A stretch of 43,094 nucleotides of DNA from Roseivivax halodurans JCM 10272 (GTDB lineage Bacteria; Pseudomonadota; Alphaproteobacteria; Rhodobacterales; Rhodobacteraceae), in the NCBI RefSeq assembly GCF_000521785.1, contig NZ_JALZ01000021.1, positions 1-43,094 on the forward strand, in the 5' to 3' direction. Within the stretch, counting starts at the first letter, position 1; each line of letters opens with the position of its first letter. Under the pieces are notes generated by a model. That model was not told the origin of the DNA, made no database searches, and saw only the letters and a list, made by a program, of their open reading frames with translations. Of this stretch, positions 6,234-21,467 are shown one piece after another. A program made the position numbers and the translations under genes.

Positions 6234-6322
6234 CCTGCGACCCTCGATCGTTATGGCTCATGTAATGGGATCGAACCGAGAAACCCATTATGTTGCAAGT
6301 TACTTGCAATACATTTGATGGG

Positions 6323-6397
6323 TGGTGCTGCCGGAGAGGATCGAACTCTCGACCTCGTCCTTACCAAGGACGCGCTCTTCCACTGAGCTACGGCAGC
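6323..6397 (-). tRNA. tRNA-Thr(GGT)
   Basis: Acceptor GCTGCCG/CGGCAGC, anticodon stem CGTCC/GGACG, loop TTGGTAA (anticodon GGT), T-loop TTCGATC, discriminator A, encoded CCA. Reads ACC/ACT. It is the last gene of the array in the direction of transcription. Confidence 0.95.
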
Positions 6398-6402
6398 GCA
6401 TC

Positions 6403-6480
6403 TGGTGCCCTCGGCTGGACTCGAACCAGCGACCTCTCGCTTCGGAGGCGAACGCTCTACTCCAACTGAGCTACGAGGGC
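6403..6480 (-). tRNA. tRNA-Arg(CCG)
   Basis: Acceptor GCCCTCG/CGAGGGC, anticodon loop CTCCGAA (CCG), stem TTCGC/GCGAG with one T-G pair, discriminator A, encoded CCA. Lies five bases from tRNA-Thr(GGT). Reads CGG. Confidence 0.95.
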
Positions 6481-6520
6481 AGGGCGCCGCGGAGAAAAGC
6501 GCGGCGCGTGTGGGGCCGGC

Positions 6521-6943
6521 TCAGACGGCGAGCACGGATTTGACGATGCCCGAGGCGGTGCGGCCGTCGTAACGGCCCGCATGCTCGGAGCTGAGGGCAC
6601 CCATGATCTGGCCCATATTCTTACCTTCGGCCGCGCGGGCCTCGGCAAAGCCGCGCAATTCGTCCTCGGTCATCTGCCGAGGCAGATAGGCCTCGAGCGC
6701 CGCCTTCTCGACGAGGAGTTTCTCGCTCGGGGCGCCGCCGGTATGCCAGATCGTCTCATCGATGCTCTTGAGGAATTTCTTGACCACGGCCACGACTTCC
6801 GCGTCCGTCATGGCGCGCGCCGGGCTGAAACCCTTCGTCTTCGTGTCGATCTCGCCGATCAGGGTCACCAGGCCGCCCGCCTCGGGCGCCTTAGACTTGC
6901 GTGCGGCAAGCGCGTCGGCGCGAATGGTGTCGAGCAGGCTCAT
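6521..6943 (-). CDS. YqeY-like (GatB/YqeY domain) protein
   Basis: 140 residues, close to the usual 145-150 of stand-alone YqeY proteins. Start chosen at MSLLDTIRADALAARK because AAGGAG lies six bases upstream. The sequence follows the family: an N-terminal helix with the RA-D...ARK pattern, a central ...EKLLVEKAALEAYLPRQMTEDEL block (EI..LE.YLP is the family signature), and a C-terminal MGQIMGAL...GRYDGRTASGIVKSVL. The domain is the helical tRNA-binding tail of GatB, the Asn/Gln amidotransferase subunit; the role of free-standing YqeY is not settled. It sits inside the tRNA array and in its direction, which suggests a tRNA-related job. A TGCGAAAA motif lies upstream at 7020. Confidence 0.9.
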   Translation of the reverse strand: MSLLDTIRADALAARKSKAPEAGGLVTLIGEIDTKTKGFSPARAMTDAEVVAVVKKFLKSIDETIWHTGGAPSEKLLVEKAALEAYLPRQMTEDELRGFAEARAAEGKNMGQIMGALSSEHAGRYDGRTASGIVKSVLAV

Positions 6944-7019
6944 GGGGATCTCCTTGGAATGGCCGGTCGAGGAAAAGCATCTCGCCAGAAGGCGTCGCTC
7001 GATGAAGTCTACCTGGATG

Positions 7020-7034
7020 TTTGCGAAAAACAAT
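7020..7034 (+). promoter_or_regulatory. Recurrent TTGCGAAAAACA motif, upstream of yqeY-like gene
   Basis: TTTGCGAAAAACAAT lies about 75 bases upstream of the minus-strand yqeY-like start. Here the motif points opposite to the gene, unlike most other copies. Confidence 0.45.
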
Positions 7035-7054
7035 AGCAGACGCTGGGTCAGAAT

Positions 7055-7129
7055 TGGCTTCCCGTCGAGGGTTCGAACCTCGGTTTCGAGAGTCAGAGTC
7101 TCGCGTCCTACCGGTTAGACGAACGGGAA
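7055..7129 (-). tRNA. tRNA-Gln(CTG)
   Basis: Acceptor TTCCCGT/ACGGGAA with the weak U1-A72 pair typical of tRNA-Gln, anticodon stem CGAGA/TCTCG, loop CTCTGAC (CTG), T-loop TTCGAAC, discriminator G, encoded CCA. Reads CAG. Confidence 0.93.
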
Positions 7130-7463
7130 ACAGGCAGAGCCTGATCGGGATCGGACCCTCATCCGAAACCGGAAGGTTCCGTCGTAGAGGAGGCCGGCCT
7201 CGGCCAGCTGGCAGGGCTGGGTCGGTGATCCCGCAAGCGGCGCGGATCCGCGCCACGTCGAGCAAGGTCTTTTTCGCTGCGATGTGGCTGGGGGCGCAGA
7301 GCGTCGACCCGTTCGACAGGTAATAGCCACCGTCCGTATATAGCTTGCGCTAGAGCACGTGGTGGGCCGCATCCCCGGGTTCCCCGCAGATGATGCAGGC
7401 ATGCCCGTCGCGGGCAAAGACCGCCTCCTTGAAGGCGCGCCGATCGAGAAGCGCCTCCGGCAT
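7130..7463 (-). pseudogene. Broken HNH-type nuclease gene
   Basis: From the ATG at 7463 the frame reads FKEAVFARDGHACIICGEP, AAHHVL, then a TAG stop (7350-7352), and continues in the same frame with YTDGGYYLSNGSTLC and LDVARIRAACGI. The C-x2-C, HH, GGYYLxNG and C-x3-H spacing is that of small phage/plasmid HNH-like proteins. The amber codon replaces what is usually a charged residue before RRL. The frame is also lost after the AACGI region, close to the tRNA-Gln gene, so the gene is dead. A short GGA-containing ribosome site precedes the ATG. Confidence 0.65.
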
Positions 7464-7755
7464 GGCTCCGTCCTTTCCGTGGTTCGGTTGTTCTCGACGA
7501 TCATCGGCACGAGGCCGGCGAGGGACGGGCCCGGGCTGCTGACCCGCTTCCCGTCCTGCTCTCCACTTGGCCGTTACTGACGGCCGCTAAGCCGCGGTCT
7601 CGCACCGACCGTTCACCCGGGGCAGCACTCCCGGTCAGCGATTCTGCAGAGATTGCCCAGGGGGTGCCTCCAAAGGTCCCCCTATAGCCCGCCGGCCCCG
7701 TGCGGATGATCGTGTGTGTCGTGTCGCAAGAGGCGGGATCCGCCTCGGTGCCCGG
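7464..7755. other. Intergenic stretch, no gene seen
   Basis: About 290 bases between the HNH remnant and the 227-residue gene. I searched for tRNA-like T-loops and found none. Some G+C-rich inverted repeats are present, but no clear terminator. Confidence 0.4.
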
Positions 7756-8439
7756 TCAATCGACCGTGCAGGTCTCCATCAGCTCCTGCAGGAGCCGCGT
7801 GTTCTCGACCTCCTCGGGGTCCTGGTAGGGGCCACGCGCGGCAAAGTAGGATGCCGCGGCCTCGAAGCCGGGATCGCGCTCCGCGAGGCCGAGAGCGATG
7901 GCCGCCACCGCGTAGGCACGACCGGCCGCGAGCGGCAGCTCGTGGCTCGCGAACGTGTCGGCGAAGACCCTGGCCGTCTCGATCTCGGTATCGGAGACCG
8001 GAAGCACGAAGTCCGCGGGCATGTAGCCCGTGTCGTCGACCCCGCGGATCTCGAGATAGTCGAGGTATTGCTGTCGGGCGCCGAAGGCAAAGAGCATCCG
8101 GGTTGCGGCCGGGCTCAGGTCGGCGAGGTACTGCCGGCCGCGACCATAGTACATCTCGAGACGCCCGTCGGCCGCGAAGGGCTCGAAGCAGCGGTCGCAC
8201 ATCGTGCCCCGCGGCGGGACGCCGGCGGCGCCGATGGTCCACACGTAGCGTGCCATCTGCCCGCCGATGCCGTGAAGGAGGACGCCGTCATGTTCCCAGT
8301 CGCCGCCGCGCCTGCGGCAGATGCCGCAGCCGGCGTCCTCGATATGGCACGACGCGTAGGCCTCGCCCGGGATGTGGATATTGTCGTGGCCCGCGCGGCC
8401 GGGGCCGGTATCGCTGGCGAAGGTCGGACGGTCGGACAT
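7756..8439 (-). CDS. Unknown Cys-rich protein inside the tRNA array
   Basis: 227 residues starting at MSDRPTFASD; GAGGAG lies six bases before the ATG, which favours this start over longer alternatives. Cysteines at 31, 38, 41, 81 and 84 form a CHIEDAGCGIC and a CDRC pair, a plausible zinc-binding arrangement. The rest is acidic and mostly helical with no membrane segment. I do not recognise it. It is co-oriented with the flanking tRNA genes and could be co-transcribed with them. Confidence 0.7.
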   Translation of the reverse strand: MSDRPTFASDTGPGRAGHDNIHIPGEAYASCHIEDAGCGICRRRGGDWEHDGVLLHGIGGQMARYVWTIGAAGVPPRGTMCDRCFEPFAADGRLEMYYGRGRQYLADLSPAATRMLFAFGARQQYLDYLEIRGVDDTGYMPADFVLPVSDTEIETARVFADTFASHELPLAAGRAYAVAAIALGLAERDPGFEAAASYFAARGPYQDPEEVENTRLLQELMETCTVD

Positions 8440-8534
8440 GGTCGCTCCTCGAGGCACGTTACGGTCGAAGCCGATGTCTCCGGCCGGTGGGCGGCATGAC
8501 GACCCGGGACGAAAGAATTCCGTCCCGGCAGAAT

Positions 8535-8610
8535 TGGTGGTGCGAGGCAGGACTCGAACCTGCGACATTCGGCTTATGAGGCCGGCGCTCTACCACTGAG
8601 CTACTGCACC
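8535..8610 (-). tRNA. tRNA-Met(CAT), elongator-like, bulged acceptor stem
   Basis: Anticodon loop CTCATAA, T-arm GCAGG/TTCGAGT/CCTGC, encoded CCA. The 5' strand is GGTGCAG, but the 3' strand reads CTCGCACC: one extra C interrupts an otherwise perfect CTGCACC complement. Pair 27-43 is also C-A. The variable region ATGTC is elongator-like. It may be a tolerated bulge or an inactive gene. Confidence 0.75.
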
Positions 8611-8669
8611 ATGGTCCGGCGCATGGCTCCGGACGGGTTACGAGGCGGGTACCAGGGCCCACGATAGTC

Positions 8670-8759
8670 TGGCGGAGGGAGCGAGATTCGAACTCGCGGG
8701 ACCCGTGAAGGTCCGCCGCCTTTCCAAGACGGTGCAATCGACCGCTCTGCCATCCCTCC
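8670..8759 (-). tRNA. tRNA-Ser(GGA)
   Basis: 90-base class II tRNA: acceptor GGAGGGA/TCCCTCC, anticodon stem CCGTC/GGCGG, loop TTGGAAA (GGA), long variable arm, T-loop TTCGAAT, discriminator G, encoded CCA. Reads TCC/TCT. Confidence 0.93.
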
Positions 8760-8781
8760 ATGAGATGCGGCCTGACGGAAC

Positions 8782-8857
8782 TGGTGCCGGACGAGAGGAT
8801 CGAACTCCCGACAATCTGCTTACGAAGCAGCTGCTCTACCGCCTGAGCTAGTCCGGC
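8782..8857 (-). tRNA. tRNA-Thr(CGT)
   Basis: Acceptor GCCGGAC/GTCCGGC, anticodon loop TTCGTAA (CGT), stem GCTGC/GCAGA, T-stem GGGAG/CTCTC with one G-T pair, discriminator A, encoded CCA. Reads ACG. Confidence 0.92.
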
Positions 8858-8861
8858 CAAG

Positions 8862-8940
8862 TGGTTGCGCGGGCAGGATTTGAACCTGCGACATGGTGGT
8901 TATGAGCCACCCGAGATAGACCGGACTTCTCCACCGCGCG
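8862..8940 (-). tRNA. Initiator tRNA-fMet(CAT), variant anticodon stem
   Basis: Acceptor CGCGCGG/CCGCGCA leaves C1 opposite A72, the mismatch that marks bacterial initiator tRNAs for formylation. The D-arm starts TGGAG as in initiators. Anticodon stem GGTGG/CCACC with loop CTCATAA: pairs 30-40 and 31-39 are G-C, but position 29 is T-A, so the usual three consecutive G-C pairs are incomplete. Discriminator A, encoded CCA. Confidence 0.88.
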
Positions 8941-8990
8941 CGACAATGGCTCGCGGGAGCCGCTGTCGGACGAGGTGCCTGCCGGTATGC

Positions 8991-9076
8991 TGGTGCCCAG
9001 GGCGAGACTCGAACTCGCACGGCCTTTCGGCCACCGACCCCTCAAGCCGGCGCGTCTACCATTCCACCACCTGGGC
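8991..9076 (-). tRNA. tRNA-Leu(GAG)
   Basis: 86-base class II tRNA: acceptor GCCCAGG/CCTGGGC, anticodon stem CCGGC/GTCGG, loop TTGAGGG (GAG), variable arm GGCCGAAAGGCC, T-loop TTCGAGT, discriminator A, encoded CCA. Reads CTC/CTT. Confidence 0.92.
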
Positions 9077-9110
9077 ATTGGCCGCATGTCGCTGCGACCG
9101 GGCGATCCGT

Positions 9111-9185
9111 TGGTGCCTCCGGAGGGATTCGAACCCCCGGCCAAACCGTTATGAGCGGCCCGCTCTACCGCTGAGCTACAGAGGC
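9111..9185 (-). tRNA. tRNA with CAT anticodon, possible tRNA-Ile2
   Basis: Acceptor GCCTCTG/CGGAGGC, anticodon stem GGCCG/CGGTT, loop CTCATAA, T-loop TTCGAAT, discriminator A, encoded CCA. The AGCGGTAGAGC D-arm and the TTGG variable region resemble alphaproteobacterial tRNA-Ile2, which needs lysidine at C34, but pair 4-69 is T-A, which is more Met-like. The third CAT tRNA of the array; identity uncertain. Confidence 0.85.
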
Positions 9186-9591
9186 GCAATCGAAGGGCAG
9201 GGCGCGCCGTGACGCGCCCCGAGACGACCCTGCCCTGGGCAGGGCCGCCGAACTGGTCCCCGTGGCCTGGTTGCAGCCGTTTCGCCTCCGGTCTCGAGCC
9301 CGTCGACTACTTTGGCCTCCACCCCCGTGCGAGGGTTGCCGGGTAGCTACTCCCGGCGCGCCCCGCAGGTGGCTTGCAGGCGTCCTCCGCCCTCCACGGA
9401 CGGTGCTCTGCCGGAGCTGCACGGAGATCTCGCGAGGGCCCGGGGGCCGGGCCCTGTCTCTGGAACTGGGGCGCCCTACGGATCGCCTGTCGGCTCCCCG
9501 TTGTCTTGGTCCCGGCCGACGCCCAGCCGTAACGCATCCGGTTTACCTGGCCGCGCCTGTCCCAAACCGGAAAACGGGGCAGGCCGGAGAT
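9186..9591. other. Gap in the tRNA array without gene
   Basis: About 400 G+C-rich bases. Frames open through it lack ribosome sites and domains. No T-loop signature could be folded into a tRNA. A GGGCAGGG...CCCTGCCC inverted repeat lies just downstream of the 9111-9185 tRNA gene. Confidence 0.4.
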
Positions 9592-9666
9592 TGGTCGTCC
9601 CGGGAAAAGTTGAACTTCCGACCTCTCGCTTATCAGGCAAGCGCTCTATCACTGAGCTACGGGACG
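9592..9666 (-). tRNA. tRNA-Ile(GAT)
   Basis: Acceptor CGTCCCG/CGGGACG, anticodon stem CTTGC/GCGAG, loop CTGATAA (GAT), T-arm GGAAG/TTCAACT/TTTCC with a G-T pair, discriminator A, encoded CCA. Reads ATC/ATT. Confidence 0.92.
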
Positions 9667-9690
9667 ATATCGGGTGGGCGTCGCTCTTTC

Positions 9691-9777
9691 TGGTGGGCCG
9701 GGATGGATTTGAACCACCGTGGGTTTCCCCGCCTGATTTACAGTCAGGTGCAATTAGCCGGACTCTGCCACCGACCC
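9691..9777 (-). tRNA. tRNA-Tyr(GTA)
   Basis: 87-base class II tRNA: acceptor GGGTCGG/CCGGCCC with one T-G pair, anticodon stem CCTGA/TCAGG, loop CTGTAAA (GTA), long variable arm, T-loop TTCAAAT, discriminator A, encoded CCA. Confidence 0.93.
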
Positions 9778-9854
9778 ACGAGAAAGAGCGATGCGCCGCG
9801 TTTCACGCGCGCGGCGGGACGTTGGAAAGCGGGCGCCGGCGGCGCCGACCGCGA

Positions 9855-10232
9855 TCAGCAGCGGATCTGGATCTTGTCCTTGCCGACCAGGATCTTCACC
9901 GGCGCGCCGTCAGCCCGGGCGAAGGTGAACTCGATGAGATCGAGCACCTCTTTCAGCCGCGCGGCCCCGTCGGGTTCGGGGCAGGAAAAACCGATGCGGC
10001 TGAGCGCCGCGAACCGCGGTTTCAGGAACCGCTGATGGTTAAAGTCCCTGTCCCAGGTGATCAGCGTCCGGCCCGCAGCCATCGCTGCTGCGGCCACGAC
10101 CGGGTCCTTGGCATCGGCGGACATGATGTCGCGCACGCGCACCAGATCGTGGCCGTGGCCAATCAGCAGCTTCGGGACGGACTCGGGAACGTTCTGATCA
10201 GTGAGGAAACTGATCGTCGTCCCGGACAGCAT
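9855..10232 (-). CDS. DUF5615 PIN-like toxin
   Basis: 125 residues. FLTDQNVPESVPKLLIGHGHDLVRVRDI at the N terminus and LITWDRDF near residue 60 carry the acidic residues (D12, WDRDF) expected of the DUF5615 PIN-like fold, a family of predicted ribonuclease toxins. Its ATG overlaps the stop of the DUF433 gene by one base (TGATG), giving translational coupling in the order antitoxin then toxin. The pair lies within the tRNA array in its direction. Whether tRNA is the target is unknown. Confidence 0.85.
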   Translation of the reverse strand: MLSGTTISFLTDQNVPESVPKLLIGHGHDLVRVRDIMSADAKDPVVAAAAMAAGRTLITWDRDFNHQRFLKPRFAALSRIGFSCPEPDGAARLKEVLDLIEFTFARADGAPVKILVGKDKIQIRC

Positions 10233-10873
10233 CAGGCGGCATGGGAACCGTCGAACGTGCGAGCGGCTTCAATGTCATCCGCCGACAGGTCCGGAAATTC
10301 TTCCAGGATCTCGTCGGTACCATACCCACACTCGAGATACCGCTTTACGGAGGCGACCGGGATCCGGGTGCCTTCGAAGACCGGCTGGTTGTTCTGAACG
10401 AACCGGCCGCTCAGCACATGACCATACGCGCTTTGGCCCCGGCGGTTCAGATCCTCGATCGCCCGCTTGGTGTCGGAGATCGCGACCCGCAGCGGGATGT
10501 CGAAAACGCGCTGTCCGCCCACCACCTCTCGGCGTTTGTCGTCTCGCGGGTCATCGAAGACCACGCGCTTGCCGAGCACGTAGAGGACCGTTGCCGTCCA
10601 CTTGTCCTCACCCAGGTGGGCGAGTTCGGCGGCGACCTTGCGAAGGTGCTGCATCGGCACACCGTTCTCGTTCCGGAGCGCGTTGAGCACGCGGAGCGAG
10701 ACGATATCCCGGAATGAGTAGACCCGGCTGTAGGCCTGCCTCCGGTCCTCGGGGGCGTAGCTCGGGCGCAGGAAACCGGACCGATCCCAGTCGCGCAACT
10801 GGTAGATCGATACGCCGGTGAGGCGTGCTGCGTCCTCCTCGGAGAAGGCACCTATCAAATCGGTCTCGGTCAC
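10232..10873 (-). CDS. MerR-type HTH plus DUF433 antitoxin
   Basis: 213 residues from a GTG start (MTETDLIGAFSEEDAARL), chosen because GGAGGAAGC lies just upstream; an ATG 21 bases earlier is less well placed. Residues about 10-75 are a MerR-like winged helix (SEEDAARLTGVSIYQLRDWDRSGF, then RVYSFRDIVSLRVL). Residues about 155-205 are DUF433 (QPVFEGTRIPVASVKRYLECG, EILEEFPDLSADDI). DUF433 proteins are the partners of DUF5615 PIN-like toxins, and the HTH suggests autoregulation of the operon. Confidence 0.85.
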   Translation of the reverse strand: MTETDLIGAFSEEDAARLTGVSIYQLRDWDRSGFLRPSYAPEDRRQAYSRVYSFRDIVSLRVLNALRNENGVPMQHLRKVAAELAHLGEDKWTATVLYVLGKRVVFDDPRDDKRREVVGGQRVFDIPLRVAISDTKRAIEDLNRRGQSAYGHVLSGRFVQNNQPVFEGTRIPVASVKRYLECGYGTDEILEEFPDLSADDIEAARTFDGSHAA

Positions 10874-10972
10874 GGCGCTTCCTCCGGCGATCATCGGACC
10901 GCCATGTCGACAATGGCCGAGGTCCGGGTCACGGACAATGCTGCTTCTGAGCGGCGTAGCCCGGCGCCCCCG

Positions 10973-11332
10973 CTAGGCCCCGGAGGGAGTGATAGCGGGG
11001 AGAGGCTCGCTGCGCTTCTCGCGCGCGGCGCGCATCCAGGCGAGATCCTGGTCGAGGTCGACATTGACGACCAAGCCGGTCAGATCCACGATCCGGTCAG
11101 TCGCGCCCTGCGCTGCGAGCACGTGGATCTCGCGCAGAAGCTTGCGCAGGCGGGCCACCTTGGCCGCCTCGATCTCCTCGGGACGGAAGGCGTCATAGGC
11201 CGCGCTGATGGCGCCGAGGCGCTCCAGTTCGGCATCGAGGCCCTCGGGTGTGGCCGCGGGCGCCAGGCTGACGCGCAGGCTCGAGGCGCCGGCGGCCAGG
11301 CGATGTTTCTCGATGACATCATCGAAGGTCAT
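10973..11332 (-). CDS. Unknown small helical protein
   Basis: 119 residues from MTFDDVIEKHRLAAG; AGGAG lies eight bases before this ATG, which decides the start. Strongly helical and charged, with no cysteines, membrane segment or recognisable domain. Lies between the toxin-antitoxin pair and tRNA-Trp in the array direction. Confidence 0.65.
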   Translation of the reverse strand: MTFDDVIEKHRLAAGASSLRVSLAPAATPEGLDAELERLGAISAAYDAFRPEEIEAAKVARLRKLLREIHVLAAQGATDRIVDLTGLVVNVDLDQDLAWMRAAREKRSEPLPAITPSGA

Positions 11333-11359
11333 GACCGGCTCCTCTGGTCTGCTTGGTAT

Positions 11360-11435
11360 TGGCAAGGGTGGCCGGGATCGAACCGACGACATCCGGTTTT
11401 GGAGACCGGCGCTCTACCATCTGAGCTACACCCCT
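11360..11435 (-). tRNA. tRNA-Trp(CCA)
   Basis: Acceptor AGGGGTG/CACCCTT, anticodon stem CCGGT/ACCGG, loop CTCCAAA (CCA), T-loop TTCGATC, discriminator G (Trp identity), encoded CCA. Confidence 0.94.
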
Positions 11436-11469
11436 ATCGTGCCGCGGCCTCGGCCGCGGCGGCTGTATC

Positions 11470-11546
11470 TGGCGTCCCTGGAGGGAGTCGAACCCACGAC
11501 CTCCGCAGTAGGAATGCAGCACTCTATCCAGCTGAGCTACAGGGAC
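11470..11546 (-). tRNA. tRNA-Arg(CCT)
   Basis: Acceptor GTCCCTG/CAGGGAC, anticodon stem CTGCA/TGCGG, loop TTCCTAC (CCT), T-loop TTCGACT, discriminator G, encoded CCA. Reads AGG. Confidence 0.92.
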
Positions 11547-11680
11547 ACGTTCATCTGGACCGACCCCGGGGAGCATATGGCGCTTCGACCCGGGCGGGCC
11601 GCAATCCTGGCCGGCAGCGCCGTGGCGCCGCCGGCTTATCCATGACCCGGCGCGGACCGCCCGCCCGCGATCCCGTGTCG

Positions 11681-11760
11681 GGACCGGAGGGATTCGAACC
11701 CATCGACGCCCAGAAAAGGACGCGGCCATGAATGCTGGTCTGGAGGCCACGCGTGGTGCG
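11681..11760 (-). pseudogene. Decayed tRNA, Glu(TTC)-like
   Basis: On the minus strand a T-arm (ATGGG/TTCGAAT/CCCTC) is followed by CGGTCCC with no CCA. Upstream, a CGTCC/GGGCG stem encloses a six-base loop TTTTCT, one base short of a Glu anticodon loop. No matching 5' acceptor strand is found. Glu is the only amino acid without an intact tRNA here, so this may be its remnant. Confidence 0.4.
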
Positions 11761-11774
11761 GGACCTCCCGGAAG

Positions 11775-11864
11775 TGGCGGAGAGTGTGGGATTTGAACCC
11801 ACGAGGCCCGTTAAGGCCTGGTCCGTTAGCAGTGGACTGGTTTCGACCGCTCACCCAACTCTCC
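11775..11864 (-). tRNA. tRNA-Ser(GCT)
   Basis: 90-base class II tRNA: acceptor GGAGAGT/ACTCTCC, loop CTGCTAA (GCT) on stem GTCCA/CGGAC with an A-C pair at 31-39, variable arm GGCC...GGCC, T-loop TTCAAAT, discriminator G, encoded CCA. Reads AGC/AGT. Confidence 0.9.
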
Positions 11865-11899
11865 AGGTCTCCCGCAGGGCACGGGAGGGTATGCGAAAA

Positions 11900-11975
11900 T
11901 GGTGCCCACGGACTAGATTCGAACTGTCGACCTGCCGATTACAAATCGGCTGCTCTACCACTGAGCTACGCGGGC
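11900..11975 (-). tRNA. tRNA-Thr(TGT) with a bulged T-stem
   Basis: Acceptor GCCCGCG/CGTGGGC, anticodon stem GCCGA/TCGGC, loop TTTGTAA (TGT), encoded CCA. The T-arm GACAG/TTCGAAT/CTAGTC pairs only if one A is bulged out of the 3' strand. Reads ACA. Third Thr isoacceptor. Confidence 0.8.
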
Positions 11976-11983
11976 ATCTTGGT

Positions 11984-12021
11984 CTCCAGCTCCGCTGGTG
12001 TTGGCTCCCCAGGCAAGGATC
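11984..12021 (+). repeat. Duplicate of the tRNA-Asn 3' end
   Basis: A 38-base direct repeat of 12125-12162 with one mismatch. It contains the last about 20 bases of tRNA-Asn (acceptor 3' strand and half the T-arm) plus 18 bases beyond it. It lies 141 bases past the intact gene on its 3' side. Confidence 0.85.
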
Positions 12022-12124
12022 TTGTCGGCGGCATGGTCGCCGGTGCGCCCTTCGGGCGTCCAGCTCCCTGCCGCTTCGATCCCCGCCCGGTCTCACGCAA
12101 CCATCCCCCGGATGGTTGCTTGCT

Positions 12125-12162
12125 CTCCAGCTCGGCTGGTGTTGGCTCCCCAGGCAAGGATC
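12125..12162 (+). repeat. tRNA-Asn 3' end, second repeat copy
   Basis: Partner of the repeat at 11984; this copy is part of the intact tRNA-Asn gene and its 3' flank. Confidence 0.85.
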
Positions 12163-12217
12163 GAACTTGCGACACACTGATTAACAGTCAGCTGCTCTAC
12201 CGCTGAGCTACAAGGGA
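12143..12217 (-). tRNA. tRNA-Asn(GTT)
   Basis: Acceptor TCCCTTG/CTGGGGA with a T-T mismatch at 6-67, anticodon stem GCTGA/TCAGT, loop CTGTTAA (GTT), T-loop TTCGATC, discriminator G, encoded CCA. Its 3' end is duplicated downstream. Confidence 0.9.
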
Positions 12218-12252
12218 ATAGGCGCCGAAGCGCCGGTTGTTCGGTGAATGGC

Positions 12253-12507
12253 TCAGGCCCCGTCCGGCGAAGCGATCTCCGCGGCGTCGACGATGCTGAT
12301 GCCGTAGTCCTCCGCCTCGACGAGCCAGTCGCCGGGCTTGCGCGGGATCCGCGTGCTCTCGCCATCCCGCCAGTCGAGGCTCCAGAACGTGCCGCCGGCG
12401 AAGTCGACCGACGGCTGTCCGCCCGGTATCTTCGAGAAGGCGATCTGCGCGTCGAGCGGCAGGTCCTTGACCCGGTTGCCCGGACGGATCCGGTAGCAGG
12501 CAGTCAT
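12253..12507 (-). CDS. Unknown small protein
   Basis: 84 residues (MTACYRIRPGNRVKDLPLDAQ at the start). Codon use is of coding type and several short strands are predicted (AFSKIPGG, TFWSLDWRDG, DWLVEAEDYGISIVDAAEI). The ribosome site is weak. It lies in array direction between tRNA-Asn and tRNA-His. Not recognised. Confidence 0.5.
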   Translation of the reverse strand: MTACYRIRPGNRVKDLPLDAQIAFSKIPGGQPSVDFAGGTFWSLDWRDGESTRIPRKPGDWLVEAEDYGISIVDAAEIASPDGA

Positions 12508-12569
12508 CCCGATCAGGAAGTCGTAGCCTCGAAGGTCGTCGCATGTCCCATGTCGGGGCCCTTTCGAAT

Positions 12570-12643
12570 TGGAACCGTCTCCAGGAGTTGAACCTGAATC
12601 TTCGCGGCCACAACGCGACGCTCTACCATTGAGCTAAGACGGC
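12570..12643 (-). tRNA. tRNA-His(GTG), without G-1
   Basis: Acceptor GCCGTCT/AGACGGT (G1-T72), anticodon stem TCGCG/CGCGA, loop TTGTGGC (GTG), T-loop TTCAACT, encoded CCA. The discriminator is T, and T precedes G1, so the universal G-1/C73 pair is absent. Alphaproteobacteria are known to lack it, usually with A73; T73 is unusual. Confidence 0.87.
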
Positions 12644-12704
12644 ATGTGTGTCCGGAAGGACGGTATGGCCAGCCCCAACCGAGGGGCGAACCGTGGCGTC
12701 GGGA

Positions 12705-12768
12705 TGACGGCACGGCCGGGGCTCGAACCCGTTTAACGATGCATCGCTCGGCCAGTGAGCCGGGATCC
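12705..12768 (-). pseudogene. Decayed tRNA remnant
   Basis: A T-arm (ACGGG/TTCGAGC/CCCGG), an acceptor 3' strand CCGTGCC and a D-arm GCTC...GAGC are in order, but the anticodon arm cannot be paired, the 5' acceptor strand is missing and TCA replaces CCA. A GTTAA near the loop position may recall Asn. Confidence 0.45.
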
Positions 12769-12797
12769 AACCGGCATGAACTTCGGACGGCGATCGC

Positions 12798-13019
12798 CTA
12801 AGGGGTCAGGCGTTCGGCAGCGGCTTCGACATTGCGGGCATCGATCTCCTCGAGCGCGTCCGCGAACTCGTTCGTGAGCCCCTTTTCAGAGATGAAGCGC
12901 AACGCAAACCGTTCGAGCCGCGCGCCGAGCTTCGGGTTGCTGGCCGCGAGATGTTCGACGCGGTGATCCGCGTCGTCGTGCGTCCAGACATCCATCAGGA
13001 GCTTGTCGGGCAGGGACAT
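12798..13019 (-). CDS. Unknown small acidic protein
   Basis: 73 residues (MSLPDKLLMDVWTHDDADHR at the start). AAGGAAG lies eight bases before the ATG. Helical, with the pattern ...HLAASNPKLGARLERFALRF and an acidic C-terminal half. No known domain. Lies in array direction before tRNA-Lys. Confidence 0.6.
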   Translation of the reverse strand: MSLPDKLLMDVWTHDDADHRVEHLAASNPKLGARLERFALRFISEKGLTNEFADALEEIDARNVEAAAERLTP

Positions 13020-13132
13020 ATCGGTCTTCCTTTGACTTGCGGTTTCCGGTCTATCCTACCGGGAGTTCAAGAAAATTGTCCTGCGCTTGTCTGCGGCCGG
13101 GAGCGCGCGAGGCGCTCGACCGGCGGTATTGT

Positions 13133-13207
13133 TGGTGAACGGTCTGGGGGTCGAACCCAGGACACCCTGATTAAAAGTCAGGTGCTCTACCACTGAGCTA
13201 ACCGTCC
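13133..13207 (-). tRNA. tRNA-Lys(TTT)
   Basis: Acceptor GGACGGT/ACCGTTC, anticodon stem CCTGA/TCAGG, loop CTTTTAA (TTT), T-loop TTCGACC, discriminator A, encoded CCA. Reads AAA/AAG. Confidence 0.94.
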
Positions 13208-13208
13208 A

Positions 13209-13250
13209 TGGTAGCGGGCGACGGGGTCGAACCCGTCACACCGATACCGG
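13209..13250 (-). pseudogene. Truncated tRNA: 3' half only
   Basis: T-arm GACGGG/TTCGACC/CCGTC, acceptor 3' strand GCCCGCT, A and CCA are intact, but upstream there is only a small ACCG/CGGT hairpin before the CCA of the neighbouring tRNA-Val. The D-arm and anticodon arm are absent. Confidence 0.6.
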
Positions 13251-13255
13251 TGGTC

Positions 13256-13331
13256 TGGTAGGGGGTGACGGGATCGAACCGCCGACATCCTGTGTGTAAA
13301 ACAGGCGCTCTCCCAGCTGAGCTAACCCCCC
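13256..13331 (-). tRNA. tRNA-Val(TAC)
   Basis: Acceptor GGGGGGT/ACCCCCT, anticodon stem CCTGT/ACAGG, loop TTTACAC (TAC), T-loop TTCGATC, discriminator A, encoded CCA. The only Val tRNA here. Confidence 0.93.
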
Positions 13332-13341
13332 ACGGTGAACT

Positions 13342-13431
13342 TGGCGGGCGAGGTCGGATTCGAACCGACGGGCCGCGGAGGCGGCCGGCAGGGTTCAAGC
13401 CTGCTGCAATCGACCGCTCTGCCACTCGCCC
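13342..13431 (-). tRNA. tRNA-Ser(TGA)
   Basis: Class II: acceptor GGGCGAG/CTCGCCC, anticodon stem GCAGG/CCTGC, loop CTTGAAC (TGA), long variable arm, T-loop TTCGAAT, discriminator G, encoded CCA. Reads TCA. Confidence 0.94.
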
Positions 13432-13458
13432 GAGAATGCGGTCGTGTATCGAAGCCGT

Positions 13459-13534
13459 TGGCTGGGGTGGCTGGGTTCGAACCAGCGGTACACGGTACCA
13501 AAAACCGTTGCCTTACCAGCTTGGCTACACCCCA
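13459..13534 (-). tRNA. tRNA-Gln(TTG)
   Basis: Acceptor TGGGGTG/CACCCCA (U1-A72, Gln type), anticodon stem ACGGT/ACCGT, loop TTTTGGT (TTG), T-loop TTCGAAC, discriminator G, encoded CCA. Reads CAA. Confidence 0.94.
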
Positions 13535-13574
13535 CCATCTCGGCGTCCGGCGCCGCCGGGGGCGCCGAGGATCC

Positions 13575-13664
13575 TGGCGGACAGGGTGGGGTTCGAACCC
13601 ACGGAGCCCTTGCAGGCTCGCCGGTTTTCGAAACCGGTGCATTCGACCGCTCTGCCACCTGTCC
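13575..13664 (-). tRNA. tRNA-Ser(CGA)
   Basis: Class II: acceptor GGACAGG/CCTGTCC, anticodon stem CCGGT/ACCGG, loop TTCGAAA (CGA), variable arm GAGCC...GGCTC, discriminator G, encoded CCA. Reads TCG. Fourth Ser isoacceptor. Confidence 0.94.
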
Positions 13665-13973
13665 ATGAGGTGCGGCCGCAAAAGAAACGAGAGGCGCGGG
13701 TCGAAGGCAGCAAGATGCCCCGCCGGGTCGCTTACTCCGCCCCCTTCGGGTCGGCCTCTCGCCATGCACGGGCAGTCGCGGGATGCGTGGTCCCGACCGT
13801 CGCGCAGGCATTCTGGAATTTCGGTTGGCGCCTCTCCTGGTGAAAGCGGACGCCGGGCTCGCCCCCGTTTGTTTTACCTCGCCGAGGGCCTGACCGCGGT
13901 CGTGCCGCCCGAGGGCCGGATGTCGGCTTCGTCCGCGTCGTGGCGGCACGCCGATCGATCTCCGGCGAGATAC
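13665..13973. other. Array gap without gene
   Basis: About 300 bases with no credible coding frame or tRNA fold. It ends in the duplicate of the tRNA-Gly 3' end. Confidence 0.4.
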
Positions 13974-13994
13974 TGGAGCGGCAAACGGGTATCG
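13974..13994 (-). repeat. Duplicate of the tRNA-Gly(GCC) 3' end
   Basis: Matches the last about 21 bases of tRNA-Gly(GCC) (14083-14103) with one mismatch: CCA, discriminator, acceptor 3' strand and T-stem into the T-loop. It lies 109 bases past the intact gene. Confidence 0.8.
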
Positions 13995-14082
13995 GGCCGG
14001 CAGCATGGTCGGCGCGATAGTCGCTCGAACCGGTGGCGCTCCGCGCGCCTTCCTGCTGCTTCGATCCCCGTCGCCAGGTTAT

Positions 14083-14157
14083 TGGAGCGGCAAACGGGGA
14101 TCGAACCCGTGACCCCCACCTTGGCAAGGTGGTGCTCTCCCTCTGAGCTACTGCCGC
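14083..14157 (-). tRNA. tRNA-Gly(GCC)
   Basis: Acceptor GCGGCAG/TTGCCGC, anticodon stem CCACC/GGTGG, loop TTGCCAA (GCC), T-loop TTCGATC, discriminator T (Gly type), encoded CCA. Reads GGC/GGT. Confidence 0.94.
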
Positions 14158-14252
14158 ATGTGCCGGCGTCCGGACGGAACGCACCCTGCCTCGCGGATCA
14201 TGGTGGCGTTCCTTGCGGAACCGGCGATCCCGCGTCTGTCGCGCGGGAGTTT

Positions 14253-14328
14253 TGGTGGACCTAGGAGAATTCGAACCTCCGACCTTAGCGTTCGCAACGC
14301 GGTGCTCTCTCCACTGAGCTTCCGATCC
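14253..14328 (-). tRNA. tRNA-Arg(GCG), imperfect fold
   Basis: Loop TTGCGAA (GCG), T-arm GGAGG/TTCGAAT/TCTCC, discriminator A, encoded CCA. Acceptor GGATCGG/TAGGTCC has a G-A mismatch at 6-67, and anticodon-stem pairs 27-43 and 28-42 do not form. GCG is rare for Arg in bacteria, which use ACG; ACG is also present in this array. Confidence 0.75.
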
Positions 14329-14445
14329 AATTCTTTATTGCTGAGAGACCCGAGGAAAAATCGATTGTTTCTCACTCAAGGGTTGTTTTGTCAGGGTTCA
14401 TTCGGGATCGTCCCGAGGTAACACTTTAAAAAGTCAGGACTTCAC

Positions 14446-15231
14446 GTGATCTTTCGGAAATACCTCGTCGGCGGCGCCATCCTTGCGATGCTCGGCACAT
14501 CGACGCCAGCTCTTGCCGCGGGAGAGCCATGGAAAACATCCGCACCGCGTGGGATGACCACACAGCATCAGCAATATGCAGCCGCTGCCCGACAGGTTCA
14601 CGCCCAGGTCGGAGCGGCACGCTTTGGATATAATCCGCTGCAAGCGGACTGGCGCTACCAGGGGGATCGCCTCCCGACGATGCCCATGTCGAACATGACA
14701 AAAGTAGCGGTCTCTTCGGCGATCAATGGACGTTACCACGTCTACCGCAAATATGGTCAGAACTCTTGGTCCGTGCGCTACTATGCTGGTGGCGGAAGGA
14801 CCTACTTCTGCGAATCCGACAGCCGCGGAAACTACTCCGAGTTCGAGAAAGATAGATACGTCGATCCAACGCCTTTCGGACTTGCCGGGATCATGCATTG
14901 GCAAGGTGGAACGCCGCCGGCACTAGAGCGTTTCGGTTGGCCAATGGCTGCCAATCCGTCCACGGGAGAGGTCACTATGTACGGGTGGTACCGAGGCGAC
15001 TGGATCAGTGAGCCTGGCTGGCTTCAGGATGAATACGCGGCCGGCTTCGCGAAGAAGTGCCCCAATCTGCCGCGCGCCAGCTCGGTAAACAACAACCAGC
15101 GCGGCGATACGATTAGCGAGATCGCCCAGGGTGCGCGAGGTTTCCGTGGCTTCAACGTCGCCTTCCCGAACGATCCGCGCAATCCTCTGACCGCTGGTAT
15201 GTATTACCATCTGTATCCACCGGCGCGCTGA
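14446..15231 (+). CDS. Secreted protein of unknown function
   Basis: 261 residues from a GTG start with AGGA about eight bases upstream. A basic N terminus (MIFRKY), a hydrophobic core and a cleavage-like ALA-AGEP at about 24 form a signal peptide. The mature part is rich in Tyr, Trp and Gly (RYHVYRKYGQNSWSVRYYAGGG, then a single CESD and later KKCPN, a possible disulfide). I do not recognise the family. It is the only protein gene on the plus strand inside the tRNA array and is flanked directly by tRNA-Arg and tRNA-Ala, so it must have its own promoter. Lower G+C in its 5' flank suggests separate arrival. Confidence 0.8.
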   Translation: MIFRKYLVGGAILAMLGTSTPALAAGEPWKTSAPRGMTTQHQQYAAAARQVHAQVGAARFGYNPLQADWRYQGDRLPTMPMSNMTKVAVSSAINGRYHVYRKYGQNSWSVRYYAGGGRTYFCESDSRGNYSEFEKDRYVDPTPFGLAGIMHWQGGTPPALERFGWPMAANPSTGEVTMYGWYRGDWISEPGWLQDEYAAGFAKKCPNLPRASSVNNNQRGDTISEIAQGARGFRGFNVAFPNDPRNPLTAGMYYHLYPPAR

Positions 15232-15244
15232 TCCTGCAATTGTT

Positions 15245-15320
15245 TGGTGGACCCTGTCGGACTTGAACCGACCGCCTCCTGCTTGCAAAACAGGCGCTCT
15301 CCCAGATGAGCTAAGGGCCC
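15245..15320 (-). tRNA. tRNA-Ala(TGC)
   Basis: Acceptor GGGCCCT/AGGGTCC, anticodon stem CCTGT/GCAGG, loop TTTGCAA (TGC), T-loop TTCAAGT, discriminator A, encoded CCA. The only Ala tRNA here; its 5' 20 bases are repeated twice upstream. Confidence 0.94.
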
Positions 15321-15645
15321 ATGGAAGGCAGGGCCCTCACTGAGAGAGCGGCTGCCCGGCGGCCGGTCAAGTCGGCCGCGCTCGTTGCTCGAAACCCTCC
15401 CCCGGAGAGTTTCGCGATCCGATGCCCCTCGCCCCAGATGAGCTAAGGGCCCGTGGTGGCAGGGCCCTCACTGGAAGAGCGGCTGCCCGGCGGCCGATCA
15501 ACTCGGCCGCGCTCGTTGCTCGAAACTCTCCCACGGAGAGTTTCGCGATCTGATGCCCCTCGCCCCAGATGAGCTAAGGGCCCATGGAGGCAGGGCCCTC
15601 ACTGAGAGAGCGGCTGCCCGGCGGTCGATCAAGTCGGCCGCACAT
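15301..15645. repeat. Tandem repeat of about 131 bp that begins inside tRNA-Ala
   Basis: Units begin at 15301, 15433 and 15564 (the last is partial). Each starts with the reverse complement of the first 20 bases of tRNA-Ala and then carries a GCGGCCG/CGGCCGC inverted repeat. The first two units also have a CGAAACTCTC/GAGAGTTTCG hairpin. Copies differ by a few substitutions. Only the first unit is attached to a whole tRNA. Confidence 0.85.
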
Positions 15646-15736
15646 GTTCTCGTGACGGAGCCCCCGAAGCGGCACCGACCCCTCACCGTGCCGGGCAAGG
15701 GTGGGGCCCCGTCAGAAGAACATGATCGAGTGCAAT

Positions 15737-15762
15737 TGGAGGTGCCGCCCGGAGTCGAACCG
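15737..15762 (-). repeat. Duplicate of the tRNA-Cys 3' end
   Basis: 26 bases identical to the last part of tRNA-Cys (15837-15862): CCA, discriminator T, acceptor 3' strand and T-arm to the T-loop. It lies 100 bases past the intact gene. Confidence 0.85.
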
Positions 15763-15836
15763 AGATGCGTTCCGGCCGAAGAGACGGCCGGATGAGCATC
15801 CATGTTCGCCTCGGGGGTTCCAGCTTCCATTGGAGA

Positions 15837-15922
15837 TGGAGGTGCCGCCCGGAGTCGAACCGGGTCCCAGTGAAGGGGCCATGGATTTGCAATCCACCAC
15901 GTTACCGTCCCGTCCCGGCACC
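15837..15922 (-). tRNA. tRNA-Cys(GCA) with a long variable arm
   Basis: Acceptor GGTGCCG/CGGCACC, anticodon stem GTGGA/TCCAT, loop TTGCAAA (GCA), T-arm CCCGG/TTCGACT/CCGGG, discriminator T (Cys identity), encoded CCA. The total is 86 bases, about 12 more than usual: the variable region is 16 bases with a CCC/GGG stem, and the D-stem is only ACG/CGT, like class II tRNAs. Confidence 0.82.
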
Positions 15923-15953
15923 AGATCCGCCCATGACCCCGGGCGGGAGGGAG

Positions 15954-16031
15954 TGGCGCTTCCCGAGAGACTCGAACTCCCGACCTTCGCGTTCGTAGCG
16001 CGACGCTCTGATCCAACTGAGCTAGGGAAGC
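15954..16031 (-). tRNA. tRNA-Arg(ACG)
   Basis: Acceptor GCTTCCC/GGGAAGC, anticodon stem TCGCG/CGCGA, loop CTACGAA (ACG, presumably inosine), T-loop TTCGAGT, discriminator G, encoded CCA. Reads CGT/CGC/CGA. Confidence 0.94.
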
Positions 16032-16055
16032 ATTGCCCCGCAGGGGCGGTCGTCT

Positions 16056-16141
16056 TGGTGCGGATGGGGAGACTCGAACTCCCACGACCTCCCGGTCACC
16101 GGTTTCTGAAACCGGCGCGTCTACCATTCCACCACATCCGC
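16056..16141 (-). tRNA. tRNA-Leu(CAG)
   Basis: Class II: acceptor GCGGATG/CATCCGC, anticodon stem CCGGT/ACCGG, loop TTCAGAA (CAG), T-loop TTCGAGT, discriminator A, encoded CCA. Reads CTG. Confidence 0.94.
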
Positions 16142-16283
16142 GTAACTGTCGTCGGCCGTTGTTTACCGGGTGGCCGTCCCCGTTTGCGCCGCGGGCGCTT
16201 GCCGGGCCCCGGACAGGACGGCCGCCGCGCTCACCCCTGAGAGGGAACGTGGCGGTCTCGCGCCCTGTCCGGGGCCACGAAAC

Positions 16284-16359
16284 TGGTGCGACGGGATGGG
16301 ATTGAACCACCGACACCCTGGGCTTCAACCAGGTGCTCTACCAGCTGAGCTACCGACGC
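16284..16359 (-). tRNA. tRNA-Phe(GAA)
   Basis: Acceptor GCGTCGG/CCGTCGC with a T-T mismatch at 4-69, anticodon stem CCTGG/CCAGG, loop TTGAAGC (GAA), T-loop TTCAATC, discriminator A, encoded CCA. Confidence 0.92.
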
Positions 16360-16393
16360 ATGCGCCCCGGCGGTGTGCCGAAGCGGGGAAGAC

Positions 16394-16503
16394 GATGGTT
16401 TTCCGTGGGGCCCGGGTCCCTCCAGGATCTGCCAGGATCCCGGCTTCGCCCACTGGCATGAACCGCCCTTCCACGGGGCGCCCGGGCTACCCGGAAAACC
16501 ATC
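16394..16503. repeat. Long imperfect inverted repeat between tRNA-Phe and tRNA-Gly
   Basis: Left arm 16394-16416 and right arm 16481-16503 pair over 23 positions with a mismatch patch in the middle; the outer GATGGTTTTCCG/CGGAAAACCATC pairs perfectly over 12. A loop of about 64 bases holds further small palindromes. No gene in between. It could be a processing structure in the tRNA precursor or the ends of a tiny element. Confidence 0.75.
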
Positions 16504-16515
16504 GCCATGATGATC

Positions 16516-16591
16516 TGGAGCGGACGACGAGGATCGAACTCGCGACATCCTGCTTGGAAGGCAGGTGCTCTACCGGCTGAGCTACATCCGC
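16516..16591 (-). tRNA. tRNA-Gly(TCC)
   Basis: Acceptor GCGGATG/CGTCCGC, anticodon stem CCTGC/GCAGG, loop CTTCCAA (TCC), T-loop TTCGATC, discriminator T, encoded CCA. Reads GGA/GGG. Confidence 0.93.
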
Positions 16592-16635
16592 AGACGCTTC
16601 TTCACCCCGGAAGAAGCTGATTTTCTTGCAAGGCC

Positions 16636-16712
16636 TGGTCGGAGTAGCGGGGTTCGAACCCACGACCTTCCGTCCCCCAGACGGACGCGCTACCAGGCTG
16701 CGCCATACTCCG
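16636..16712 (-). tRNA. tRNA-Pro(GGG)
   Basis: Acceptor CGGAGTA/TACTCCG, anticodon stem TCCGT/ACGGA, loop CTGGGGG (GGG), T-loop TTCGAAC, discriminator A, encoded CCA. Reads CCC/CCT. Confidence 0.93.
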
Positions 16713-16773
16713 ATGACCAGGTCTTGAAAGAAAACCGCGACCGAGATCCGGATAATCGGACCGAGGCGGGATT

Positions 16774-16849
16774 TGGCGAAGCGTACGGGGATCGAACCCG
16801 TGTTCTCCGGCGTGACAGGCCGGCGTCTTGACCGCTCGACTAACGCTCC
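16774..16849 (-). tRNA. tRNA-Asp(GTC)
   Basis: Acceptor GGAGCGT/ACGCTTC, anticodon stem CCGGC/GCCGG, loop CTGTCAC (GTC), T-loop TTCGATC, discriminator G (Asp identity), encoded CCA. Confidence 0.94.
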
Positions 16850-16875
16850 ATGCGGCCCCGGGACGGCTGCTATAT

Positions 16876-16952
16876 TGGTCGGGGTGAAAGGATTTGAACC
16901 TTCGGTCTCCGCGTCCCGAACGCGGCGCTCTACCAGACTGAGCCACACCCCG
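16876..16952 (-). tRNA. tRNA-Pro(CGG)
   Basis: Acceptor CGGGGTG/CACCCCG, anticodon stem CCGCG/CGCGG, loop TTCGGGA (CGG), T-loop TTCAAAT, discriminator A, encoded CCA. Reads CCG. Confidence 0.94.
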
Positions 16953-16989
16953 TCGTCCGCCTCGCGGCGAACCTTGTCATTTCGCTTCA

Positions 16990-17066
16990 TGGTCGGGGCG
17001 AGAGGCTTCGATCCTCCGACCTGACGCTCCCAAAGCGCCCGCTCTACCTGGCTGAGCTACGCCCCG
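16990..17066 (-). tRNA. tRNA-Pro(TGG) with A54
   Basis: Acceptor CGGGGCG/CGCCCCG, anticodon stem GGCGC/GCGTC, loop TTTGGGA (TGG), discriminator A, encoded CCA. The T-loop reads ATCGAAG, with A where T54 is almost invariant, and the anticodon stem has a G-T/G-C patchwork. First gene of the array in transcription order. Confidence 0.88.
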
Positions 17067-21436: not shown

Positions 21437-21467
21437 TCCAGGTACCAGGGAGACGGTTCGGTCAGAA

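Follow-up and report, generated by a model that had tools for sequence, protein, structure and literature searches.

The 43,094-base stretch of Roseivivax halodurans JCM 10272 DNA analysed here (the window, which is the whole of contig C21 in a draft genome of 4.49 Mb and 149 contigs) carries, on its minus strand at 6323-17066, an array of 34 transfer RNA (tRNA) genes that is nearly free of redundancy, diverges widely from the host's own tRNA set and lies on what appears to be a plasmid-like element. To the reading that this apparently foreign set constitutes a spare tRNA supply for translation we give about an even chance. The array had originally been predicted from folding by hand, as 34 complete minus-strand cloverleaves with an encoded CCA, decoding 19 amino acids. 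ARAGORN finds 32 minus-strand tRNA genes in the interval and Rfam finds 34 at its gathering threshold, all as matches to RF00005; the two seen by Rfam alone lie at 14256-14328 (anticodon GCG, 44.9 bits) and 15840-15922 (GCA, Cys, 44.2 bits). An encoded CCA terminates every one of the 34 genes, and 30 of them score 51-70 bits, so that the array does not consist mostly of pseudo-tRNAs. The number, strand and CCA ends given in the original prediction thus hold, as do its anticodon list and the 19 amino acids, Glu being the sole one without a tRNA; the claim of completeness does not, since the genes at 14253, 8535 and 11900 look damaged. The array region has, on its minus strand, 31 paired T-arms with a CCA after them, counting a solo 3' end at 15764; the minus strand of the rest of the window and its whole plus strand have none, a concentration which indicates that the array is not a product of chance. 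No other Rfam family, including transfer-messenger RNA (tmRNA), reached its gathering score in the window. A tRNA array unit is defined as at least 20 tRNA genes at a density of at least 2 per kb (Tran et al., as quoted in PMC5966550). With 32 or 34 genes at 3.16 per kb, 6323-17066 is a tRNA array unit, and it shares the further property of such units of being separate from, and largely redundant with, the chromosomal tRNA set.

Along the window, the genes, called by both ARAGORN and Rfam except for the two just named, begin with tRNA-Thr(GGT) (6323-6397), Arg(CCG) (6403-6480) and Gln(CTG) (7055-7129), followed by a Met(CAT) gene of inferred elongator type (8535-8610), Ser(GGA) (8670-8759), Thr(CGT) (8782-8857), an initiator-type fMet(CAT) gene (8862-8940), Leu(GAG) (8991-9076), a CAT gene of inferred Ile2 type (9111-9185), Ile(GAT) (9592-9666) and Tyr(GTA) (9691-9777). 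The middle part holds Trp(CCA) (11360-11435), Arg(CCT) (11470-11546), Ser(GCT) (11775-11864), Thr(TGT) (11900-11975), Asn(GTT) (12143-12217), His(GTG) (12570-12643), Lys(TTT) (13133-13207), Val(TAC) (13256-13331), Ser(TGA) (13342-13431), Gln(TTG) (13459-13534), Ser(CGA) (13575-13664), Gly(GCC) (14083-14157) and a degenerate gene with anticodon GCG (14253-14328). Ala(TGC) (15245-15320), Cys(GCA) (15837-15922), Arg(ACG) (15954-16031), Leu(CAG) (16056-16141), Phe(GAA) (16284-16359), Gly(TCC) (16516-16591), Pro(GGG) (16636-16712), Asp(GTC) (16774-16849), Pro(CGG) (16876-16952) and Pro(TGG) (16990-17066) complete the set. These are 32 distinct anticodons in one copy each, except for CAT with three. 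The CAT gene at 8862 has the C1 x A72 mismatch typical of initiators, the one at 9111 has as its nearest host gene the one taken as Ile2 type, and the one at 8535 would then be the elongator Met; this typing (C1 x A72 for the initiator, the Ile2 type, discriminator bases) follows rules that we assume to apply. The three CAT genes are apparently of three different types, so that no isoacceptor is duplicated, and the duplications that had been predicted are confined to partial copies, namely fragments of the Ala, Cys and Asn genes.

This low redundancy sets the array apart from the tRNA-rich megaplasmids of Pseudomonas. Outside CAT, all 31 of its 31 genes differ in anticodon, as against 32 of 46 for pMPPla107 and 33 of 41 for pBASL58 (megaplasmid tRNAs included in the comparison), 24 of 25, 23 of 24 and 16 of 16 in the tRNA clusters of the phages MD18, DSS3_MAL1 (MAL1) and CcrSC, and 35 of the 40 host genes compared. 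When 31 tRNAs were drawn at random from the pooled non-CAT tRNAs of the two megaplasmids, no more than 26 distinct anticodons were obtained in 20,000 trials. On this count the array resembles the clusters of alphaproteobacterial phages and not the Pseudomonas megaplasmids. Two or more of these sets contain a same-anticodon gene for 29 array tRNAs, and the nearest such gene belongs to the host in 14 cases, to a phage in 10 and to a megaplasmid in 5, suggesting by sequence that the array tRNAs have no single source.

The rest of the genome holds 40 more tRNAs by Rfam, besides a Tyr gene and a Thr(TGT) gene that an intron interrupts. No gene for Ile GAT, Ala TGC, Ser GCT, Gln CTG or fMet was detected beyond the array, in a search that is lossy (the first four also went undetected in the congener G007) and in a draft that is possibly incomplete. 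That Thr(TGT) is missing from the host chromosome was considered and rejected: the gene (387-721 within C1:141600-142700) contains some 253 inserted bases, which match the group I intron family from end to end with 35.5 bits (E 3.8e-7; the gathering score, 50, is not reached), whereas the congener's gene is uninterrupted. Between array and host, tRNAs of the same anticodon have a median identity of 76% (range 62-91%, n=26; this count excludes the three CAT genes and five anticodons without a host counterpart compared, and Thr(TGT) is included via the congener's gene), against a median of 95% in the control comparison of congener G007 with the host (n=21, including unlike-type CAT pairs at 70%). 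In the anticodon stems of 29 comparable pairs of genes, 45% of the positions differ from the host, and 143 of 145 stem pairs are kept, 60 of them altered on both sides; random change at the same positions keeps a mean of 105 pairs and a maximum of 118 in 2000 trials. Acceptor stems keep 193 of 196 pairs against a random mean of 153 and a maximum of 168, with the gene at 8535 left out; the script used for counting chose the anticodon position that gave the best pairing. These figures show that folding has been under long selection in each lineage. Anticodon loops, by comparison, are identical to those of the host in 19 of 29 cases, and the other 10 differ only at positions 32, 37 or 38, so that there has been no general rewriting of loops.

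The most likely mechanism behind these features is the following. The element would bring one spare gene for almost every tRNA species; if the host pool were drained by tRNA-cutting toxins or defence enzymes, or by translational stress, the spare set could sustain translation, and supply by strong expression would need no change in the anticodon loops. Precedents exist for both situations: phage tRNAs rescue from tRNA-cleaving defences, and in the case of phage tRNA-Tyr and retron-Eco7 even the tRNA-Tyr of E. coli rescues if placed under a phage promoter (PMC11555353), while a plasmid-borne tRNA operon is induced by translational stress (PMC10272220). We infer that the array is expressed and charged and confers a selective benefit. 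A back-up against tRNA-cutting defences had already been suggested in the original prediction. As far as this implied rewritten loops it is not borne out, because 19 of 29 loops are those of the host and loop-based evasion could be partial at most; supply by extra copies is compatible with the data. Likewise, the anticodon-loop changes that go with the nuclease-insensitive phage tRNAs of van den Berg et al. are not a general feature of this array, though its stems differ widely from those of the host.

A different reading sees the array as a passenger from a large phage or phage-plasmid that is decaying and of no present benefit, which we regard as somewhat unlikely. In its favour are the blemishes of the array. 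The gene at 14253-14328, with six non-standard pairs, mispaired stems and the anticodon GCG (Arg?) on an Ala-like body, is probably a pseudogene; the gene at 8535-8610 has one extra base where the T-stem meets the acceptor, and that at 11900-11975 a bulged base in its T-stem. Five further tRNAs (Thr CGT, Arg CCT, Ser GCT, Asn and Phe) contain a single mismatched stem pair, and in Pro TGG the usual first T-loop base is missing. There are also a broken gene resembling HNH and RNA-ligase families and several partial repeats: a partial tandem repeat at 15301-15641 around tRNA-Ala, whose 5' part it includes, and copies of the 3' ends of tRNA-Cys (15737-15762) and tRNA-Asn (11978-12021). Since only one complete solo 3' end, that at 15764, exists in the window besides the 34 genes, we do not claim a cassette mechanism. 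An Arg(GCG) tRNA, with the anticodon of the gene at 14253-14328, is called by ARAGORN in pBASL58 as well. On the other side of the balance, all acceptor, anticodon and T-stem pairs are intact in 26 of the 34 tRNAs (a figure that includes Pro TGG and also the initiator, whose mismatch is normal), 30 of 34 reach the Rfam scores of 51-70 bits given above, and altogether about 31 array tRNAs look working while three look damaged.

What decay looks like in this genome can be seen in another contig, C6, where a second copy has already decayed, a fact that can be read either way. It is a collinear relic of the array block 8862-9434 (84% identity over 339 bases and 81% over 207) that occupies 9337-11145 within C6:181000-197198, with three tRNAs, Ile2-like, Leu and initiator, at C6:191808-192144; the gene that interrupts it is presumably an alcohol dehydrogenase. 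Rfam detects one of the three tRNAs, at 27.1 bits and below its cut-off, and misses the other two, against 66.6, 48.3 and 56.4 bits for their counterparts in the window, and acceptor pairs number 5, 7 and 5 against 7, 7 and 6. The relic thus appears to provide an internal control that shows what relaxed selection does, which argues against the window array being a relic of the same kind.

The array is also rare in the genomes searched. With the whole array as query (33 candidates scored per genome; eight congeners and the own genome), the matches listed for the congeners span about one tRNA and reveal no such array, as expected if it is not part of the conserved chromosome, in line with what had been predicted. 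The block 8862-9434 (573 bases) gave 47 matches in 42 of 394 genomes of the family, the host's own included, at E 1e-15; all 45 matches outside the own genome span about one tRNA, and in none of the other 393 genomes, a sample of 393 genera, does the block extend beyond single tRNAs (two best candidates scored per genome). Two proteins of the window, one of 702 residues and one of 227 residues encoded within the array, were each found in 1 of the 394 genomes, the own one. In a collection of GTDB contigs, a profile of the 702-residue protein found one locus in a Boseongicola metagenome-assembled genome, and in viral contigs it found five; the DNA examined around these six loci contained no tRNAs. 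Scans for single array proteins, one of GTDB contigs and two of viral contigs, revealed no relative; all these scans used short peptide patterns with which relatives may be missed. Among the open-access papers listed in searches for such arrays, titles and the beginnings of abstracts mention none on a plasmid or chromosome of Rhodobacterales; a tRNA cluster in a Roseobacter phage is already known (PMC6409571).

Several observations weigh against the reading of the array as a spare tRNA supply. A scan of 6000-17500 for sigma-70-like promoters found none where 1.6 were expected by chance, and a scan for terminators yielded nothing above chance either. Three tRNAs look damaged and five have one mismatched pair, the pairing test spans lineages that are deeply separated and is no proof on its own of selection at present, and the decay of the C6 copy is partial, as ARAGORN still calls two of its three genes. 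A nuclease that reads the loop alone would cut array and host tRNAs alike wherever the loops are identical. Nor is the array self-sufficient, because it has no reader for the codons of Glu, for Leu UUA, UUG and CUA, for Arg AGA, or, under the wobble rules applied, for GUC and GCC. As for mobility, the scanned proteins of the window, which represent part of the frames, included no identifiable product of a relaxase, mating-pair, replication or integration gene, and the VirB4 of the genome is encoded on another contig (C24). The neighbours of VirB4 (C24:1-34000) resemble what we take to be a VirB-type secretion cluster and plasmid replication genes, and C24 is perhaps the conjugative plasmid of this genome.

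Two further explanations concern the occasion on which the tRNAs would be used. In one, the array is a stress-inducible operon like that of the delta plasmid of Anabaena, normally silent and turned on by translational stress, perhaps through a regulator that it carries itself, such as a MerR-DUF433 protein (10232-10894, minus strand; a MerR helix-turn-helix domain with DUF433, by domain match). An array on one strand of a probable extrachromosomal element, beside a full chromosomal set and with a regulator-like gene inside it, would fit this, and the Anabaena operon is a precedent (PMC10272220). However, gaps between tRNA genes of up to 1.6 kb make a single transcript less likely. In addition, the MerR-DUF433 gene adjoins a gene for a toxin-like DUF5615 PIN-like protein (9855-10232, minus strand; domain match), and the two look like a toxin-antitoxin pair, given the association of these families with such pairs that we presume. 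We consider an inducible operon distinctly unlikely.

In the other, likewise raised in the original prediction as a back-up for codon mismatch, the tRNAs of the array would serve codons which are more frequent in the element than in the host. The element does use several rare codons at 2-3 times the host rate, and the array reads many of them (TCA, TCT, TGT, CCA and AGG). Under wobble rules that we assume to hold, it reads 51 of 61 codons by strict wobble, or 53 of 61 if U34 also reads U; by the strict rules this covers 82.7% of the host codons (80,486 counted) and 83.0% of those of the element (7,020 counted), and by the wider rules 83.6% and 84.4%, respectively, as counted on heuristic gene calls with small numbers. 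Coverage is thus equal for host and element, while TTA and AGA (enriched to 3.2-3.3 times the host rate) and TTG (to 2.2 times) are read by none of the array tRNAs, and a near-complete set is unlike a targeted supplement. Codon compensation is not supported by these data and appears very unlikely.

Judged by its genes, the element is plasmid-like with phage-related parts and is probably mobile, in agreement with the predicted placement of a near-complete array on mobile-looking DNA, for which a conjugative coupling protein, insertion sequence (IS) elements and the toxin-antitoxin-like genes speak. The VirD4/TraG-type coupling protein (33574-34986, plus strand; profile) falls below the cut-offs of the named subfamilies (122.1 bits to NF010394, with a cut-off of 443), so that no subfamily is assigned; it matches at least 5000 plasmid records, and 4162 of the 5000 kept are predicted to be conjugative. 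Other genes near the array encode HipA, LysR, DruA, ASCH, IS3-type and IS21-type proteins, the DruA-like and ASCH-domain genes lying at 663-2358 in the left end of the contig, which is low in guanine-plus-cytosine (GC) content, and an H-NS-type protein is encoded at 32479-32805 (plus strand). DNA matches to plasmids point to the Rhodobacterales. The two ends of the contig do not overlap with each other. That the contig is an assembly contaminant and not part of the organism is extremely unlikely: it is a separate 43-kb contig in a 149-contig draft and its left end has a GC content of 49.7% against 64.8-65.6% in the middle, but a related array remnant is present in a 197-kb contig of the same assembly, the contamination estimate is 0.72%, and the GC content of the array is 64.8% against 67.8% for the host (300 kb). 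A PHROG scan of 7 proteins outside and 8 sequences inside the array identified no virion gene, on a contig that may be a small part of the element; the matches that it gave, to a small terminase at E 0.15 and to a tape-measure protein at E 0.074, are at chance level.

Phage relationships are found both outside and inside the array. A phrog_2045 protein of the Gp37Gp68 type, radical-SAM-like (21351-22571, plus strand), is 42-46% identical to phage proteins (best 8 of 147 matches), and an RlmN/Cfr-like radical SAM protein (phrog_27142) is encoded at 27246-28142 on the minus strand. The 702-residue protein (23076-25184, plus strand), which is common to large plasmids and jumbo phages, has homologues in 44 plasmid records (25-32% among 25 listed) and in 18 phage records (30-33% among 15 listed), the latter from Caulobacter and Brevundimonas phages plus one uncultured record. 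The plasmids, whose hosts are Proteobacteria and Bacillota, include pBASL58 with 44 tRNAs and pMPPla107 with 52; three other plasmids with a homologue that were examined have none, so that the gene is not a marker of tRNA arrays. The location of its gene, close to a toprim gene in one plasmid and next to dnaB in a second, suggests that the protein is possibly associated with replication; it has no Pfam match, and its AlphaFold model (mean predicted local distance difference test score, pLDDT, 63) has no match in the PDB at E 0.001 or better. Within the array, all on the minus strand, a YqeY-like protein of phage type (phrog_1460, 6521-6943; PHROG and BLASTP) reaches 73.9 and 76.3 bits with two large-phage proteins against 43.9 bits with the chromosomal YqeY of the host, and it has matches in 202 phage records. 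We rejected the possibility that it corresponds to the RNaseH-like gene beside the tRNAs of MAL1 and MD18, as the two do not match. The gene at 7215-7463 is broken by an in-frame stop; its two pieces, searched apart, match consecutive stretches of phrog_24030, which is listed as an RNA ligase (E 1.4e-5 and 4e-8), the first piece also matches HNH endonuclease families, and there is no Pfam match. In BcepSaruman, one of the two phages compared for YqeY, the neighbour of the YqeY gene is annotated as RtcB-like, an RNA-ligase family, so that a YqeY gene is paired with an RNA-ligase-type gene in the array and in this phage alike. The protein of 227 residues (7756-8439) could be assigned to no family in protein searches; its one relative among plasmid records (39%) is on a Salipiger plasmid without tRNAs. 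Frame scans add an open frame at 10973-11392, which has no Pfam or PHROG match and whose upstream end overlaps tRNA-Trp, and two small ones at 12253-12507 (no family match) and 12798-13019 (no Pfam match).

The tRNA-Cys at 15837-15922 points in the same direction. It has U73, a long variable arm and no non-standard pair, and is 72-73% identical to the tRNA-Cys of the roseophages MD18 and MAL1, which is likewise long (83-86 bases), but 62% to that of the host, which is short. Since the phage-type YqeY and this roseophage-type tRNA-Cys occur together with a conjugation gene, the array might, in an unlikely but more specific version, be a portable decoding set with one tRNA of each kind, in which selection prevents duplicates and which, carried by an intermediate between a jumbo phage and a tRNA-rich megaplasmid, would insure element and host against the loss of single tRNA species.

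To the question of why complete sets of tRNA genes are found on mobile elements, the present array adds a nearly non-redundant case. Most of the tRNA set of its alphaproteobacterial host is known, the genome also contains a decayed relative that serves as internal control, and the context of the array connects those of plasmids with those of large phages. The likeness to ICEAfe1, mycobacterial plasmids and large phages that had been pointed out for it is apt. The array of ICEAfe1 of Acidithiobacillus ferrooxidans and that of At. ferrivorans CF27 also reside on a conjugative-type or island element and are held to have been acquired by transfer (PMC5468388), but they come from unrelated hosts, neither an integrase nor a tra cluster was recognised in the present contig, and the likeness is one of description only. 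The array units of mycobacteria, located on plasmids, phages and chromosomes and also likened by description only, similarly contain at least 20 tRNAs at a density of at least 2 per kb that differ from the chromosomal ones (PMC5966550), and HNH genes are common in them (PMC5966550, PMC12803027), whereas the HNH-like gene here is broken, the phylum is another, and tmRNA is absent at the gathering score. The megaplasmids pMPPla107 and pBASL58 likewise carry tRNA genes by the dozen (Rfam finds 52 and 44) and a homologue of the 702-residue protein (about 30%), although their tRNAs are redundant, lie in several clusters and are nearest for only 5 of 29 array tRNAs. The alphaproteobacterial phages DSS3_MAL1, MD18 and CcrSC share with the array many, hardly redundant tRNAs among small genes, the first two a long tRNA-Cys and CcrSC the 702-residue homologue, and together they are nearest for 10 of 29 array tRNAs against 14 for the host; yet the genes beside the first tRNAs of DSS3_MAL1 and MD18 are RNaseH-like and PTH2, not YqeY, no common gene order was noticed, no virion gene was identified in the present contig, and PMC6409571 reports that, outside mycobacteria, a spread of these clusters by phages is not clearly evident. 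With regard to a possible use, the trn operon on the megaplasmid of Anabaena PCC 7120, compared by description only, is alike in that its 26 tRNAs exist beside a full chromosomal set and serve under translational stress (PMC10272220). The array of R. halodurans therefore belongs to a known kind, the tRNA array unit, and is distinct within it by its non-redundancy on a plasmid-like element, its phage-type companions and its decayed sister copy.

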